Assembly (NCBI GenBank): GCA_014384545.1
Contig: JACNFQ010000047.1
Coordinates: 1-22,757 of the forward strand
Direction: 5' to 3'
From: a bacterium
GTDB taxonomy: Bacteria; UBP7; UBA6624
Length of the DNA: 22,757 nucleotides
Position 1 is the stretch's first letter. The number at the start of each line of letters is the position of its first letter. Under the pieces are notes generated by a model that ran no database searches, had not been told where the DNA came from, and saw nothing but the letters and a program-made list of their open reading frames with translations. The position numbers and the translations under genes were made by a program. Shown here piece by piece: positions 15,538-22,757 of this stretch.

Positions 15538-17517
15538 CTAACTACCAGGAATGAAAAAGAGAATCTCGGAATGCGCAGCAAGCCGAAAAAAGACCGATGG
15601 TGCTAGCCCCACAAAAAGAGTAAAAAAGGTTGCAAATGCGACTCCAGTCCAGGTAAAGACCACCCCTTTGAGCTGGGCGGGTTCACCACTTTCTTCGGGT
15701 TGCTTCAGGAACATCTCTCGGGCCACCTTGAAGTAATAGTAGAGGGCAATAACGGTATTCAAACCACCCACGGCAACGAGCCAAACCAATTGAGGCGTTT
15801 CCAAGGCAGCCATAAAGACGCTCCATTTCGCCCAAGCCCCAGCTGTAGGGGGAATGCCTGCAAGGCTAGCCAAACAGATTAGCATCAAGAGCGCCATACC
15901 CGCTTCTCGCCGCCACAACCCTCGAAATCCCTGCAGTGTGGGGGGAATACCCTTAGACTCAAGATAGGAAACGACACCAAATGCCCCCACATTCATAAAG
16001 ATATAACAGAAAAGATAGAAAAGAGCTGCTTGGAATCCCAACGAATGGAAAGGGGTGATGCCCGGAGCAACGGCGGCCGCTACGATCGCCATTAGGACGA
16101 ATCCGACATGAGCTATTGAGGAAAAGGCGAGCATCCTCTTTACATTTTTCTGATGGAGTGCAGAGAGGTTACCGACAGTCATGGTGATAGCCGCCAATCC
16201 AGCGAGTATCCCCGTCCAGTGCATCGTCATCGGTGCCAATCCCAAGAGAAAGATGCGCATCCAGACACAGAACCCCGCCACCTTTGGGGCCAGAGCCAAG
16301 AACACACCTACAGGTGCAGGAGAGCCTTCTACGGCATCAGGGAACCACTGATGGAACGGGGCAACCGCAATCTTATAACCCAACCCTGCCACCATCACAG
16401 CTAATGCCAGCCCAATAAGCCCTTCGTTGGGATGCCCCTTATCCAACAACCAATAGATATCATATAGATTCGTCGTTCCCAACAATCCATAGAACAACGC
16501 CCCCGCCAAGAGAATGAGAATTCCCGAAAAGACGCCCACAAGGAAATACTTGAGCATTGCCTCTCCGCTTCGAGCCCCTTCTCGACTAAAACCGACGAGG
16601 AGATAGAGAGTGATAGAGCTAAACTCCGTCATGACATAGATAGCCAAGAGGTCGGAAGAAGCGACCATAAACATCAAACTCACACCAGCGATCATCAAGA
16701 GTGCAAAGAACTCACCCCGGTTCTTCCTGAGTTTGGGATGGTCCCATGCTAAGAGAATCGTGAAGATAACGATGATATCAATCGTCAGCTCCCAGAAAAT
16801 TGAGAAGGGATCAAAAGTCTCCATTCCTCCCCAGAATTGACCAAGGTTCCACGTGAAATGGCGACTCGTCAGCCGAATAATTGCAAAGGTAGTCGCAATA
16901 CTAAAGAGCTGGAAAAAGAGAGCAAGTGAAGGAATCCAATGGCGCTCTTTGGCAACCCGACCCAGTCCGAAGAACATGGCAAAAACGAAACCACCTAAAA
17001 CCCAAGGTTTGGGGTCACCCCAAGGTAGGTCGGCAAAGTTCAAGATTTGAGCAGCAGGTAGAGCCATAAGTAGCCCCAAGCCAGAAGCGCCCCACTTGGG
17101 TAGAGATAGACGACTTCCCTTCTGCTTGGTCAGGAAAGCAAAGAGGATTCCAAAGACCAGAAATCCAAGAACCCACGCCCAAGTCCCCCCCTTGGGAAGC
17201 CCCATTGAGATGCCGATAGATGCAGCAATAACTCCGCCAAATCCACCCACACCTGTAGCGTCCCAACTGGGCAAAAGACGATTCCCTTCTCCCCCCTTCT
17301 TCTTGAGGACAATCGCCATCCCCAAGACGAGCAAAGCCCCCACAGCGACCGCAATCTCAGGAACGAGAAGGAAATACCCTTGGTGCTTATGGAGAAGGAA
17401 CTGGAGCGCTTGGTCTAACGCGACCAAAGGATTGAGCGTATCGAATGAGAACCCAAAGACCGAAACCCCCAAAGAGGAAGAGGTCAGTGAGGACCCCAAG
17501 AGAGGAAGGTGAAACAT
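15538..17517 (-). CDS. nuoN: NADH-quinone oxidoreductase subunit N with long N-terminal extension
   Basis: NuoN is a proton-pumping membrane subunit of respiratory complex I, related to Mrp antiporters. The 659-residue protein has many membrane spans. Pumping residues are in place: Glu298 in MTEFSSITLYLLVGF, Lys382 in GYKIAVAPFHQWFPDAVEGSP (a channel motif), Lys412 in LAPKVAGF and Lys564 in PPTAGAWAKW. These correspond to the E. coli NuoN set E133, K217, K247 and K395. The key Glu is about 165 residues later than in E. coli, because the N-terminal region holds extra hydrophobic spans. In most bacteria nuoN follows nuoM; here no other nuo gene is in view. The upstream neighbour is a secreted protein, 16 bases away. 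The identification is strong; assignment as N rather than another Mrp-like subunit is by closest motif fit. Confidence 0.9.
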   Translation of the reverse strand: MFHLPLLGSSLTSSSLGVSVFGFSFDTLNPLVALDQALQFLLHKHQGYFLLVPEIAVAVGALLVLGMAIVLKKKGGEGNRLLPSWDATGVGGFGGVIAASIGISMGLPKGGTWAWVLGFLVFGILFAFLTKQKGSRLSLPKWGASGLGLLMALPAAQILNFADLPWGDPKPWVLGGFVFAMFFGLGRVAKERHWIPSLALFFQLFSIATTFAIIRLTSRHFTWNLGQFWGGMETFDPFSIFWELTIDIIVIFTILLAWDHPKLRKNRGEFFALLMIAGVSLMFMVASSDLLAIYVMTEFSSITLYLLVGFSREGARSGEAMLKYFLVGVFSGILILLAGALFYGLLGTTNLYDIYWLLDKGHPNEGLIGLALAVMVAGLGYKIAVAPFHQWFPDAVEGSPAPVGVFLALAPKVAGFCVWMRIFLLGLAPMTMHWTGILAGLAAITMTVGNLSALHQKNVKRMLAFSSIAHVGFVLMAIVAAAVAPGITPFHSLGFQAALFYLFCYIFMNVGAFGVVSYLESKGIPPTLQGFRGLWRREAGMALLMLICLASLAGIPPTAGAWAKWSVFMAALETPQLVWLVAVGGLNTVIALYYYFKVAREMFLKQPEESGEPAQLKGVVFTWTGVAFATFFTLFVGLAPSVFFRLAAHSEILFFIPGS

Positions 17518-17533
17518 ATCTCTGACTAACTAC

Positions 17534-18139
17534 TTAGGGAAGATCCGAACGGAGATAGAAGTTCTCGGTGCGCCAAACGACTTGGTTGGGATCATCCTGG
17601 AAATAAGCACCAAAGCGCATCTGCACCAACGCAGGAGCGACCGATACGACCTGTGCAACACCCATTACGATTCGGGTGGTCTTCGTTTCAGGGTTGAAAA
17701 ATCCATCCGCTTGAAAAGGTCCCAACCGAGCATCAGGGGCAAAAAGTGAAGAGAAAGGGGATCCCCTTTGTTGCAACACAGCAAAGAGCTGACCATCAAA
17801 TCCCATCACGCCCACCACATCAAACCCAGCCCGAAAACTCATAGCAACCTTAGCCACAGAAGAGGCAAGAATCGCAGAAGGTTGCGTTGTAATGCCCTGA
17901 TCGGGCAGAAGTTCGGCAGGAATCGAAGCGGGAATCACAAAGGGGTCGTACTTGAAAAAGTCCGGTTTTTCTTCACTCCGATAACTACGGAAAATATCGA
18001 ATTTGACATCCAAGACTCCTTGACGCAAATCCAGTTCGCGCAACGCTTGTGCCTGATCCCTATATTCTCCAGAATGCCCGGAAGAAGGGAAGATCGCCCA
18101 AAATAGAACAATCAAGAAAGCAGAAAGGAGCTTGTTCAA
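17534..18139 (-). CDS. Secreted protein of unknown function, possibly PilP-like
   Basis: This gene encodes a 201-residue exported protein that I do not recognise. I chose the TTG at 18139 because it gives a clean signal peptide: NKLL, a hydrophobic core AFLIVLFWAIF, then PSSGHS. A weak TAGG ribosome binding site is six bases before. A longer frame opening at 18253 would overlap the small gene upstream and lacks a reason to exist. There is no lipobox cysteine. The mature part has KYDPFVIPASIPAEL and then a beta-rich segment, FDVVGVMGFDGQLFAVLQQ, which faintly resembles the DPF/beta-strand layout of PilP. As the pilQ-pilMN-pilO cluster is just upstream and no pilP is seen, a PilP-like periplasmic role is possible, but this is inference from position and a loose pattern. 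Confidence 0.7.
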   Translation of the reverse strand: MNKLLSAFLIVLFWAIFPSSGHSGEYRDQAQALRELDLRQGVLDVKFDIFRSYRSEEKPDFFKYDPFVIPASIPAELLPDQGITTQPSAILASSVAKVAMSFRAGFDVVGVMGFDGQLFAVLQQRGSPFSSLFAPDARLGPFQADGFFNPETKTTRIVMGVAQVVSVAPALVQMRFGAYFQDDPNQVVWRTENFYLRSDLP

Positions 18140-18146
18140 AGTAAAC

Positions 18147-18293
18147 CTACGCGACCCACTCTTGGTGATAAACCAGACCAAACTGTCTAGGTGCAGGATC
18201 GCTCTTCCCTTTATTAATGAAAAAGAGAACCCCCGCCAGAACCAAACCACCAACGATTGCGACCACTAAGACCGCCTTCCAGTCGATATCCAT
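18147..18293 (-). CDS. 48-residue single-span membrane protein
   Basis: A short open frame of 48 residues lies between two other minus-strand genes, seven bases before the next start and 20 bases after the previous stop. It begins MDIDWKAVLVVAIVGG, continues as one strongly hydrophobic span to LFFINKGK, and ends in a short hydrophilic tail. The charges, acidic before and basic after the span, would place the tail in the cytoplasm. No ribosome binding site precedes the ATG, so it may be translated by coupling or from a leaderless message. The start resembles that of the neighbouring 49-residue protein (M-x-[IV]-D-x-K-[AV]). I do not recognise it. Confidence 0.65.
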   Translation of the reverse strand: MDIDWKAVLVVAIVGGLVLAGVLFFINKGKSDPAPRQFGLVYHQEWVA

Positions 18294-18313
18294 AGAGGGC
18301 TGGTACCGACTCG

Positions 18314-18463
18314 TTACTGACCGAGAGCGATGCCTGTAGGGGCCTCTCCAGCCAATGTTCCACTGGTAGAAGCCTCAGCCTTGTTGCTGTTCCAAACGAC
18401 GATACCGAGAACGGCTACGACAAGAACGATGACCAATGTGGCAACTTTGTTATCAACCTGCAT
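18314..18463 (-). CDS. 49-residue single-span membrane protein with strong expression signals
   Basis: A 49-residue protein begins MQVDNKVATLVIVLVVAVLG and continues through IVVWNSNKAEAS into a small hydrophilic tail rich in Ala, Gly, Ser and Thr. It has one N-terminal membrane span. A full AGGAGG lies eight bases before the ATG, and a perfect TATAAT lies 28 bases upstream. That is the best combination of promoter and ribosome binding site in the window, so it is likely a real and well expressed gene despite its size. It heads the run of genes that goes on to the 48-residue protein, the secreted protein and nuoN. Its function is unknown; a small pilus or complex I accessory subunit are both possible. 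Confidence 0.75.
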   Translation of the reverse strand: MQVDNKVATLVIVLVVAVLGIVVWNSNKAEASTSGTLAGEAPTGIALGQ

Positions 18464-18471
18464 AATAAAAA

Positions 18472-18477
18472 CCTCCT
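18472..18477 (-). promoter_or_regulatory. Strong ribosome binding site of the 49-residue gene
   Basis: A full AGGAGG lies eight bases upstream of the ATG at 18463. It decides that this very short frame is a gene. Confidence 0.75.
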
Positions 18478-18490
18478 AGAGTTTTGTTCC

Positions 18491-18496
18491 ATTATA
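18491..18496 (-). promoter_or_regulatory. -10 box of the small-protein/nuoN operon
   Basis: The minus strand reads a perfect TATAAT between the pilO-like stop and the 49-residue gene, giving a leader of about 20 bases. No TTGACA-type -35 is visible. No terminator hairpin follows the pilO-like gene, so read-through from the pilus genes is also possible. Confidence 0.6.
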
Positions 18497-18530: not shown

Positions 18531-19400
18531 CTAAAGTGACAATCCGCTCCCCCCGCCGCCACCGCCGCCCCCGCCGCCACCACCCCCAGAGGAACCAATC
18601 GATTGCCCTGAAGGAATAAAAGACTCAGGGGATGAATTGGGGGTTCCTTCTTCGTTCAACAGATAAGCAGAGCCCACAAATGCAACGATTTCCCATGTAC
18701 CCACAGGTCGTATATTGAATGTGGATGCTTCCTGGGAGAAAAAGAGAACGGAGATTTGGTACGCACCCATGAAATACTCACTTTCACGATTAAGTGCCGT
18801 TAGAAAACCCATCACCTTATCAAAACTACCGCCCACCTGCATCACAAAGGGAAGGCGATTGATGAGATTGGGCGATTCAATATAGGGGCCCGTATCACCG
18901 AACTTATAAGTCCCCAAGGAGAAATAGCGCGTGATTTGAGGAATCTCCCATGAGACAGGAATCGTATCTGTCCCTCGCACTTCCCAACCCGTAGCGACCT
19001 GCCCCATAGGGAGCAACCCGTTTTCTCGTATCATTCGATTCAAATGGGGCTGGAACTCCTCAAGGACTTCCCAACGATCTTGGAAAAACATCGGGGTTAC
19101 CTCGGTCCACTTCGCCTCCATAACTTGATTGAGTTCAATCAAGCCATGGAGCTCCTCAGACTGTTCTTTCATCGTCTTTAGGTTCTTCGTTTCTCGTGTA
19201 ATCTCTTGCTCTACTTTCTTTAGGTCATTCTTTCTGGGTTGAACCATCTGGGAAGTAAAAAGGTAGATCAAAAGAGGTATCAACAAGAGTACGACCGAAA
19301 CCATAGCAATCCACTTGACTTCTCTATTCTGTCGAGCTTGTTGTGGATTCGCTTCAATGCGAACCCCACCCACCATGCCACTGTCTTCACCCCTTGCCAT
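18531..19400 (-). CDS. PilO-like type IV pilus inner-membrane protein with polyglycine tail
   Basis: This 289-residue bitopic protein fits PilO by place and architecture. It has a short cytoplasmic N-terminus, one membrane span at about residues 30-49 (WIAMVSVVLLLIPLLIYLF), a heptad-like coiled coil at 55-92, and a periplasmic alpha/beta part. PilO pairs with PilN in the inner-membrane ring linking PilM to the secretin PilQ. Sequence similarity to textbook PilO is weak. SFDKVMGFLTALNRESEYF is the most PilO-like stretch. The C-terminus carries a run of 13 glycines (18549-18587), which is unusual. Its ATG overlaps the pilMN stop by one base (TAATG), so the two are coupled. Confidence 0.8.
   Translation of the reverse strand: MARGEDSGMVGGVRIEANPQQARQNREVKWIAMVSVVLLLIPLLIYLFTSQMVQPRKNDLKKVEQEITRETKNLKTMKEQSEELHGLIELNQVMEAKWTEVTPMFFQDRWEVLEEFQPHLNRMIRENGLLPMGQVATGWEVRGTDTIPVSWEIPQITRYFSLGTYKFGDTGPYIESPNLINRLPFVMQVGGSFDKVMGFLTALNRESEYFMGAYQISVLFFSQEASTFNIRPVGTWEIVAFVGSAYLLNEEGTPNSSPESFIPSGQSIGSSGGGGGGGGGGGGGSGLSL
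18549..18587 (-). repeat. Polyglycine-coding tract in the pilO-like gene
   Basis: This GC-rich triplet run codes for 13 consecutive glycines close to the stop codon. It uses mixed GGN codons, so it looks selected rather than a simple slippage product. It is prone to sequencing and length error. Confidence 0.8.
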
Positions 19401-21703
19401 TATTCAGAGAACCCCGGAGGACGCCCAAATCCGGCGCCTCCTCCCATTCCACCGCCCGAGGGCATCCCTCCGCCCCCCGGACCAGGATCCGCACTTGAGC
19501 TGCCACCACCGCCTCCCCCTCCACAAAGGGAAAGAGGACCAAACGCTTCCTGCATCTTCGCCCGATCATTAAGTTCAGGGTTTAGGGTTAATGTGAGGTT
19601 GAAGTTGAAGAGGGTTGTCACCTGGGGAGTTGCGCGGAAAAGTCTCACGAGGTCGTCCAAAGCACTCCCCGATGCACTCCGTTGGCGTTCGATATCACGT
19701 AGAGCAGCTTCGTCCCCCACCGCTAAGTCAATCGACCACTCAAATCCCTGCTCAAAATAGGTACTTTCTCTTAGCGCAAAAAGGAAACGATAGATATCCT
19801 CCATCGAGAGGGCTTGACCAGCCAAAGCGACCGTATCCATCCCCTCCACAGCGATTCCCATCATGTTGTTTGAATCACCAGCCCTCTGAGAAAGCCAAAT
19901 CGTTTTGGGCATCAAGGTACGAATCTCATCCAAAAGGACTTCCCAAGGAAACTGGGTTGCCGAAAGAAGAACGACAGCACATACCTTGGGTCGAAGTCCG
20001 TTGAGTCGGCTCGTTTCACCATCAAAAGCATTGGCATCAGCCTCGTAAGAATAACTCCTCTGGCAACTCCCTAAAACAGGTGGAATCTTCACCTCTCCTT
20101 CCCAAACCCCCCCATCCATCTCTTCACAAACATTCTGAAACACCACAGACTCATCACCTCGATCCCTAGTCCAGTCACGAGACCGCGACTGCTCATTTTC
20201 AACATTCCTTAGCCTCGTATTTGCTCCCGCAATCTTGTTGTCATAATCTTCCAAGACGGTATAACCGAAATAGGCAGGAGCTAATGAGAGGATCGCGACC
20301 CACTTCATGACAGCGACTGAAGTTTTCTTGACGGCATATTCTCTAGGCAAGAGGTTCAAGGGAGCCATCGATTTCATCGAGAGCGCCTGGAGCGCCAACG
20401 AAACAGGAGCTGTCAGTTCAGAAACCCGTCCACGCATCTCTTCGGGTTCCCATTCGGTGGAGCCATAATCAACAGCCTCTAAGGGATCACCAATGACCAC
20501 ATCTAATCCGGTTGATTCGGTCAAGAAAGTCTCCAAGTTAGGGAATCGTCCCAAGTTGCCCACAAGGACGATCCTCCCTAACCTCTCTCTGCGACGAGAA
20601 AAGGACTCAAAGAACCGTTTTGATTTTTCGATTTCTTGGGCAAACTGTCCAAAGACCTTTCGCAACGCCCCATTGACGCGAGACTGGGAAGGCATCCCAT
20701 CATCCTCATCCTCTCCCACTTCACTCTCTCCATCCTCGGAGAAAGACGCAAAGGGATCATCTGGGGCTTCTCCAGATATCTCTTCAGCAGAGTCTACGTC
20801 CATTAGGTCAATCTCAGTCGCTCGGAAAATATCTGCCAAGGCGGGTAGCCCCACCTCTAACTCCGCTGCCAAGGAGGTCATCACCTTCTCGTAACCAAAC
20901 TCCACGGTTCGAGACAACCTAGCCGCCGTGGCGGGCGGTTTTGCTTTCTTCTTCTTTTTCCGTCGTCGTGTCGTCTCTTCCTCTTCCTCCATCACATCAG
21001 GTTGTTGCCCCGTCAAGAAGACGATATCGGTAATGGCATTCCTAAAATCAATCAACGCAATAGACTGGGAGTAGTCTTCGTAATACCTCTTCAAGATCTC
21101 AGCTTCGGAAAGGAAACCGATATGGAGACCCACAGGGTCCATCTTTTCCTTTTGAATGGCCAAGAGAATCGGTTCAATGATGGAGTAGCGTGTGGCAAGA
21201 ATCAAAATCTCTTGCTTTTCGATTTCATCCTCCATCACCTCTCCCAAAACGACATACCTAAAAAGCGTATCTTCTGGGGGGAAGGGAACATACTGACCCA
21301 ACTGCACATTCAAAGTCTCTTTCAACAAGGCGGGTTTCATTTTGGGTAGGCGTACAACACGCACCACAGAGTTTGTTCCCGAGAGACCAACGACGACTCG
21401 GCGCCCTGTAATACCCGTCGCCACAAGCCCTTCACCGAATTGCTGGGAAAACGCATCGGGATCAACGATTCGTCCCATCCTCCATGCTGCACCGTCCACA
21501 GGGATAAAACCCGCTCTTTCCATGATGGATTCCTTCCGACGCTTCGTCAACTGAACGACCCGAATAGAGTTGTCCTGAAAATCGATGCCTACTACGCTCT
21601 TTGGTGATCTCTTCTTCTTGGGCGGGCGTACTCGCCTAGCGACAGGGACATCCCCTTCATCTCCAGTAGGAGACGCGGGAGCCCGACGCCTAAAAAGTGC
21701 CAT
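19400..21703 (-). CDS. PilM-PilN fusion protein of a type IV pilus-like system
   Basis: This 767-residue protein joins two normally separate pilus proteins. Residues about 37-445 are PilM, an actin-like ATPase-fold protein that binds the PilN tail in the cytoplasm: VGIDFQDNSIRVVQL, LNVQLGQYVPFPPEDTLFRY, IALIDFRNAITDIVFL and IVLVGNLGRFPNL are PilM landmarks. From 449, LNLLPREYAVKK is the PilN start. A membrane span follows at about 466-484, then a coiled coil and a periplasmic domain. PilM holds an extra charged segment at about 236-345: a basic RRRKKKKKAK and an acidic, disordered EDGESEVGEDEDDG. The C-terminal 41 residues are Gly-rich. The ATG at 21703 is three bases after the secretin stop. 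PilM-N fusion removes the need for the usual tail docking. Confidence 0.88.
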   Translation of the reverse strand: MALFRRRAPASPTGDEGDVPVARRVRPPKKKRSPKSVVGIDFQDNSIRVVQLTKRRKESIMERAGFIPVDGAAWRMGRIVDPDAFSQQFGEGLVATGITGRRVVVGLSGTNSVVRVVRLPKMKPALLKETLNVQLGQYVPFPPEDTLFRYVVLGEVMEDEIEKQEILILATRYSIIEPILLAIQKEKMDPVGLHIGFLSEAEILKRYYEDYSQSIALIDFRNAITDIVFLTGQQPDVMEEEEETTRRRKKKKKAKPPATAARLSRTVEFGYEKVMTSLAAELEVGLPALADIFRATEIDLMDVDSAEEISGEAPDDPFASFSEDGESEVGEDEDDGMPSQSRVNGALRKVFGQFAQEIEKSKRFFESFSRRRERLGRIVLVGNLGRFPNLETFLTESTGLDVVIGDPLEAVDYGSTEWEPEEMRGRVSELTAPVSLALQALSMKSMAPLNLLPREYAVKKTSVAVMKWVAILSLAPAYFGYTVLEDYDNKIAGANTRLRNVENEQSRSRDWTRDRGDESVVFQNVCEEMDGGVWEGEVKIPPVLGSCQRSYSYEADANAFDGETSRLNGLRPKVCAVVLLSATQFPWEVLLDEIRTLMPKTIWLSQRAGDSNNMMGIAVEGMDTVALAGQALSMEDIYRFLFALRESTYFEQGFEWSIDLAVGDEAALRDIERQRSASGSALDDLVRLFRATPQVTTLFNFNLTLTLNPELNDRAKMQEAFGPLSLCGGGGGGGSSSADPGPGGGGMPSGGGMGGGAGFGRPPGFSE
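19403..19525 (-). repeat. Glycine-rich C-terminal tail of PilM-PilN fusion
   Basis: The last 41 codons encode eight glycines in a row, then Ser/Pro/Gly/Met-rich low-complexity sequence. It echoes the tail of the pilO-like gene and the linker in the secretin. Confidence 0.75.
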
Positions 21704-21706
21704 GCG

Positions 21707-22757
<1,051 letters not shown>

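Follow-up and report, generated by a model that had tools for sequence, protein, structure and literature searches.

The type IVa pilus is usually regarded as having a fixed set of base proteins, PilMNOPQ, and a locus in which two very short open reading frames (ORFs) sit among the genes for such a base raises the question of whether the frames are genes and, if so, which membrane machinery they serve. The locus lies in a window of 22,757 nucleotides, i.e., the whole stretch of DNA that was analysed, and forms contig C36 of a 1.39 Mb genome (79% complete) of the candidate phylum UBP7, MAGs of which are reported to occur among marine picoplankton and in saline activated sludge (PMC10834958, PMC8495973). 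The two frames, smA (18314..18463, minus strand; MQVDNKVATLVIVLVVAVLGIVVWNSNKAEASTSGTLAGEAPTGIALGQ) and smB (18147..18293, minus strand; MDIDWKAVLVVAIVGGLVLAGVLFFINKGKSDPAPRQFGLVYHQEWVA), encode predicted single-span membrane proteins of 49 and 48 residues, set back to back, as an earlier, sequence-only reading of the window had described them, with a spacing of 20 nt. Each displays one strong hydrophobic segment, with a best 17-residue Kyte-Doolittle mean of 3.3 for smA and 2.95 for smB. As to topology, smA shows a weak charge bias, and that of smB slightly favours a cytoplasmic C-terminus. ATG-initiated short ORFs as hydrophobic as these number two in the window, as against 0.33 on average in its dinucleotide shuffles; in none of 30 shuffles did such an ORF have an AGGAGG site. 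Searches of Pfam, NCBIfam, and PHROGs returned nothing above cut-off or significant for either protein.

The comparison within UBP7 comprises three genomes, the window's own and two relatives of another genus that are close to each other. Orthologues of smA and smB recur in both relatives, with position and order unchanged and with sizes of 51 residues for smA and 38 residues for smB. The smA orthologues show 45-47% identity to the window's protein, the segment MQVDNKVA being invariant in all three genomes, and the smB orthologues show 36-39%, preserving M..I.WK and a PR-x-FG tail in which x is Q wherever the base is called. All length differences among the three genomes are in-frame indels, and the frameshifts or lost conservation that had been named as grounds for giving up the two frames were looked for in the relatives and not seen. 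Between the two close relatives, all six differences in smB fall at silent third positions (P=0.002 for random placement). Over the same comparison smA shows 9 differences in 151 compared bases, the amino acid replacements being mostly in the tail, and its dN/dS of 0.83 is not low, though uninformative because so few sites are involved. Synonymous divergence (pS) amounts to 0.07 in smA and to 0.30-0.45 in the pilus genes beside it, a low value of the kind that a strongly expressed gene would show. The frames conserved across genera, the in-frame indels, the entirely silent divergence of smB, and a conserved Shine-Dalgarno sequence together indicate that smA and smB are genuine genes; that they are chance ORFs, as their very short length and the absence of a database family might suggest, is scarcely credible on the same evidence.

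The resemblance of the two N-termini noticed at the outset, M-x-[IV]-D-x-K-[AV], is present in the window (MQVDNKV in smA, MDIDWKA in smB) but looser in the relatives, where smB begins MGEINWKL. When the profiles of the two proteins were compared, 1 of 100 segment shuffles scored as high, a result no more than suggestive of a common origin by duplication.

The translation signals of the two genes differ. The Shine-Dalgarno sequence of smA, AGGAGGT (18471..18477, minus strand), is found in all three UBP7 genomes 7-8 nt before the ATG and forms the strongest duplex of the window's operon; within the window only gdhA equals it, and in the relatives the pilP site is as strong. A perfect TATAAT box (18491..18496, minus strand), one of three in the window, stands further upstream and is kept in both relatives as TTATAAT, but it lacks a recognisable -35 element and a promoter scan reports no site there. 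The assertion that smA has the best promoter plus ribosome-binding site of the window is therefore borne out for the operon and for the -10 box, and falls short on the tie with gdhA and on the incomplete promoter. Conservation of the pilO-smA gap was considered as proof of a promoter and dropped, because other short intergenic stretches of the block are conserved about as well and the region ahead of smA thus does not stand out; an internal promoter before smA is possible. A Shine-Dalgarno site is lacking before smB throughout the three genomes, and its start follows the smA stop by 20 nt in the window or 6 nt in the relatives, which suggests that smB is translationally coupled to smA. Judged by the AGGAGGT site and the TATAAT box, smA is probably the more abundant of the pair.

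A strong ribosome-binding site on one of two short, single-span, tandem frames also recalls type I toxin-like hydrophobic peptides. This identity is very improbable, given that smA and smB are each present in one convincing copy per genome, occupy a fixed place within a housekeeping operon across genera, and conserve their hydrophilic tails, and that the window contains no match to an antitoxin RNA of the families known to Rfam.

The genes upstream of smA, all on the minus strand, comprise (i) the C-terminal part of a PilQ secretin (21707..22757), which runs past the window edge and is similar to the secretins of two distant genomes, G374 and G018; (ii) a PilM-PilN fusion (19400..21703; PF11104 PilM_2, E 1.4e-16, with a weak PilN match), encoded by separate pilM and pilN genes in both UBP7 relatives; and (iii) a bitopic PilO-like protein of 289 residues with a Gly-rich tail (18531..19400; weak T2SSM match), with 44% identical orthologues in the relatives. 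Together with the probable PilP described below, the locus thus groups secretin, PilM, PilN (weak), PilO-like, and PilP genes in the manner of a type IVa alignment operon, and extension/retraction ATPases (PF00437) and prepilins (PF07963) are matched in all three UBP7 genomes. Gly-rich low-complexity stretches occur within or at the end of PilO, PilN, and PilQ, in the relatives also of PilP, and largely in G018 and G374 as well; PilQ further contains long AAEEEAARI-type repeats.

The gene that follows smB (17534..18139, minus strand) starts with TTG and encodes an exported protein devoid of cysteine, described earlier as a secreted protein, that matches no Pfam or NCBIfam family; all three UBP7 genomes are without a match to the PilP profile PF04351. 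A three-sequence AlphaFold2 model (m0a1291024381) reached a pLDDT of 68, with a beta domain at ~85, compared with 37 for the single-sequence model. Re-alignment of the Foldseek matches with VIA-align placed five PilP entries of the PDB at the top (2ivw, 3jc8, 4av2, 2lc4, and 2y4x; Z 5.9-6.7), followed by lipocalins at Z <=4.9, the best PilP Z still being below 8; in Foldseek's own ranking no PilP appears among the top 50 listed. A profile comparison with nine PilPs gave a weak signal (P 0.035) and, in the absence of a profile match, the protein is called PilP-like and not filed under PF04351. Positional orthologues share a DPF...IP.EL motif, and the gene stands after pilO and the two microprotein genes in the window and directly after pilO in G374 and G018; sequence searches for homologues retrieved only the two UBP7 relatives from genome contigs and none from viral contigs. 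The middling fold match of the model, the place after pilO, and the lack of a Pfam PilP in these genomes make it probable that the gene encodes a divergent PilP, and pilus genes therefore would flank smA and smB on both sides. The earlier placement of the pair between the pilus genes and nuoN is to be revised in this sense, the order being pilQ-M-N-O-[smA-smB]-P.

Directly after pilP, at a gap of 16 nt and in the same operon, lies nuoN (15538..17517, minus strand; TIGR01770 NDH_I_N, E 8.4e-103), probably a neighbour and not part of the smA/smB finding. In all three UBP7 genomes nuoN follows the pilus operon and is separated from the other nuo genes (nuoL and nuoM lie on contig C21). At its N-terminus the NuoN protein extends ~165 residues beyond the NuoN profile.

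Outside UBP7, the search for homologues among 386 genomes returned none that was convincing for smA or smB, the weak hits being mostly stretches of longer ORFs, and viral contigs contained no smA homologue. At the PF04351 loci of other phyla with a readable upstream gene, pilP mostly stands directly after a pilO-like ORF, from a 48-nt overlap to a 40-nt gap, without a small hydrophobic ORF separating the two. The distant genomes G018 and G374, found by the PilO profile, share the order secretin, pilMN fusion, pilO, PilP-like gene, and nuoN, to which G018 adds an O-antigen-ligase-like gene. Their gap of 44 or 57 nt between pilO and the PilP-like gene cannot fit smA or smB, and the gap before nuoN contains no hydrophobic ORF. 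Gene order shared with such distant genomes indicates that the pilQ-MN-O-P-nuoN block is old and that nuoN belongs to it, and that smA-smB is an addition to the block, seen among the 386 genomes only in UBP7. The proposed test of co-occurrence with nuoN or with the pilMN fusion came out negative in both respects, since G018 and G374 keep nuoN and the fusion without the pair. A dependence of the pair on the fusion is rejected, as both UBP7 relatives, moreover, have the pair with unfused genes. G018 and G374 weaken the idea that the pair substitutes for a missing lipid anchor of PilP: their PilP-like proteins likewise have no lipobox cysteine, and no microproteins accompany them.

The distribution bears on the proposal that smA and smB, with their genes placed just ahead of nuoN, belong to complex I as small supernumerary subunits comparable to NdhP and NdhQ of cyanobacterial NDH-1, where single-span peptides < 5 kDa are true subunits (PMC4131877). 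The pair resembles these in being single-span, below ~5 kDa, and near a complex I gene, one that shares the operon and is split from nuoL and nuoM in all three UBP7 genomes. It differs in having no sequence or family match, in the pilP gene that intervenes before nuoN, and in its pilus operon context, and distant lineages keep pilP-nuoN without it. A role in complex I is accordingly unlikely: of the options that the sequence-only reading had left side by side, the pilus accessory is supported as probable by the flanking pilus genes, and the complex I part is the weaker reading because the pair does not track nuoN.

A further candidate is a membrane function separate from the pilus, the kind of role that small membrane proteins play in stress or regulation; smA would then have a promoter to itself and merely hitch-hike in the operon. 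The TATAAT box and strong ribosome site ahead of smA would agree with such a function, as would the lack of the pair where other lineages keep this operon, against which stand the tight packing with the downstream pilP in a conserved order and the missing -35 element; it is a minority possibility, albeit one to be taken more seriously than a complex I role.

The best explanation, held at a probability of about one half, is that smA and smB are lineage-specific bitopic inner-membrane accessories of the PilMNOP alignment complex, encoded in a UBP7 pilQ-M-N-O-smA-smB-P operon, with function read from position. In P. aeruginosa, PilN and PilO each combine a transmembrane segment with a periplasmic part, and the unstructured N-terminus of PilP binds the PilNO heterodimer while its beta domain meets PilQ (PMC5805733). 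Since they are encoded between pilO and pilP, smA and smB would most simply add to the PilNO/PilP inner-membrane layer. Both proteins would be inserted into the inner membrane beside PilP, packed against PilN and PilO at their transmembrane helices or short periplasmic stems, and would serve as small subunits that stabilise the alignment complex or help to assemble it. The output of smA may exceed that of its neighbours by virtue of its AGGAGGT site and TATAAT box, that of smB would be lower, through translational coupling without a ribosome-binding site, and the PR-x-FG tail of smB is a likely contact motif. The functional evidence for a pilus role is position, drawn from three genomes of one phylum in which the whole block is syntenic, and the canonical-like operons of other lineages work without the pair. 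A stronger version, in which smA and smB are new subunits integral to the type IVa pilus base and specific to UBP7, and excess smA forms an inner-membrane ring or collar round PilN and PilO, making good the contacts that the divergent PilP, having no lipobox, would have lost, is doubtful.

Within these bounds, smA and smB make up two new families of small genes, seen in UBP7 alone among the genomes searched, and are probably accessory to its pilus, a role suggested by their position. Conserved microproteins within a pilus operon would add a lineage-specific element to a machine that has been studied well, and exemplify genes below the usual size limits hidden in an uncultured phylum. The comparison also revealed the pilQ-MN-O-P-nuoN block, common to lineages far apart, and divergent proteins, probably PilP, that escape the Pfam profile.

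Compared with type IV prepilins, smA and smB are likewise small and display an N-terminal hydrophobic helix of ~20 residues, but they are absent from the PF07963 matches and show no class III cleavage site ahead of the helix, real prepilins being encoded elsewhere in the genome. A 60-residue open frame at G001:C5:151331-151411 (L080) carries a full prepilin N-terminal signal and is far shorter than most of that genome's prepilins. The closest known counterpart of the locus is the type IVa PilMNOP(Q) subcomplex, with which the UBP7 operon shares a secretin, PilM, PilN, a PilO-like protein, and a probable PilP, as well as bitopic inner-membrane parts beside PilP. In P. aeruginosa, PilP is a lipoprotein associated with the inner membrane (PMC5805733), whereas the probable PilP of UBP7 is missed by Pfam and has no lipobox cysteine. 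In addition, the UBP7 operon begins with pilQ, in place of ending with it, and adds two bitopic proteins of 38-51 residues between pilO and pilP.
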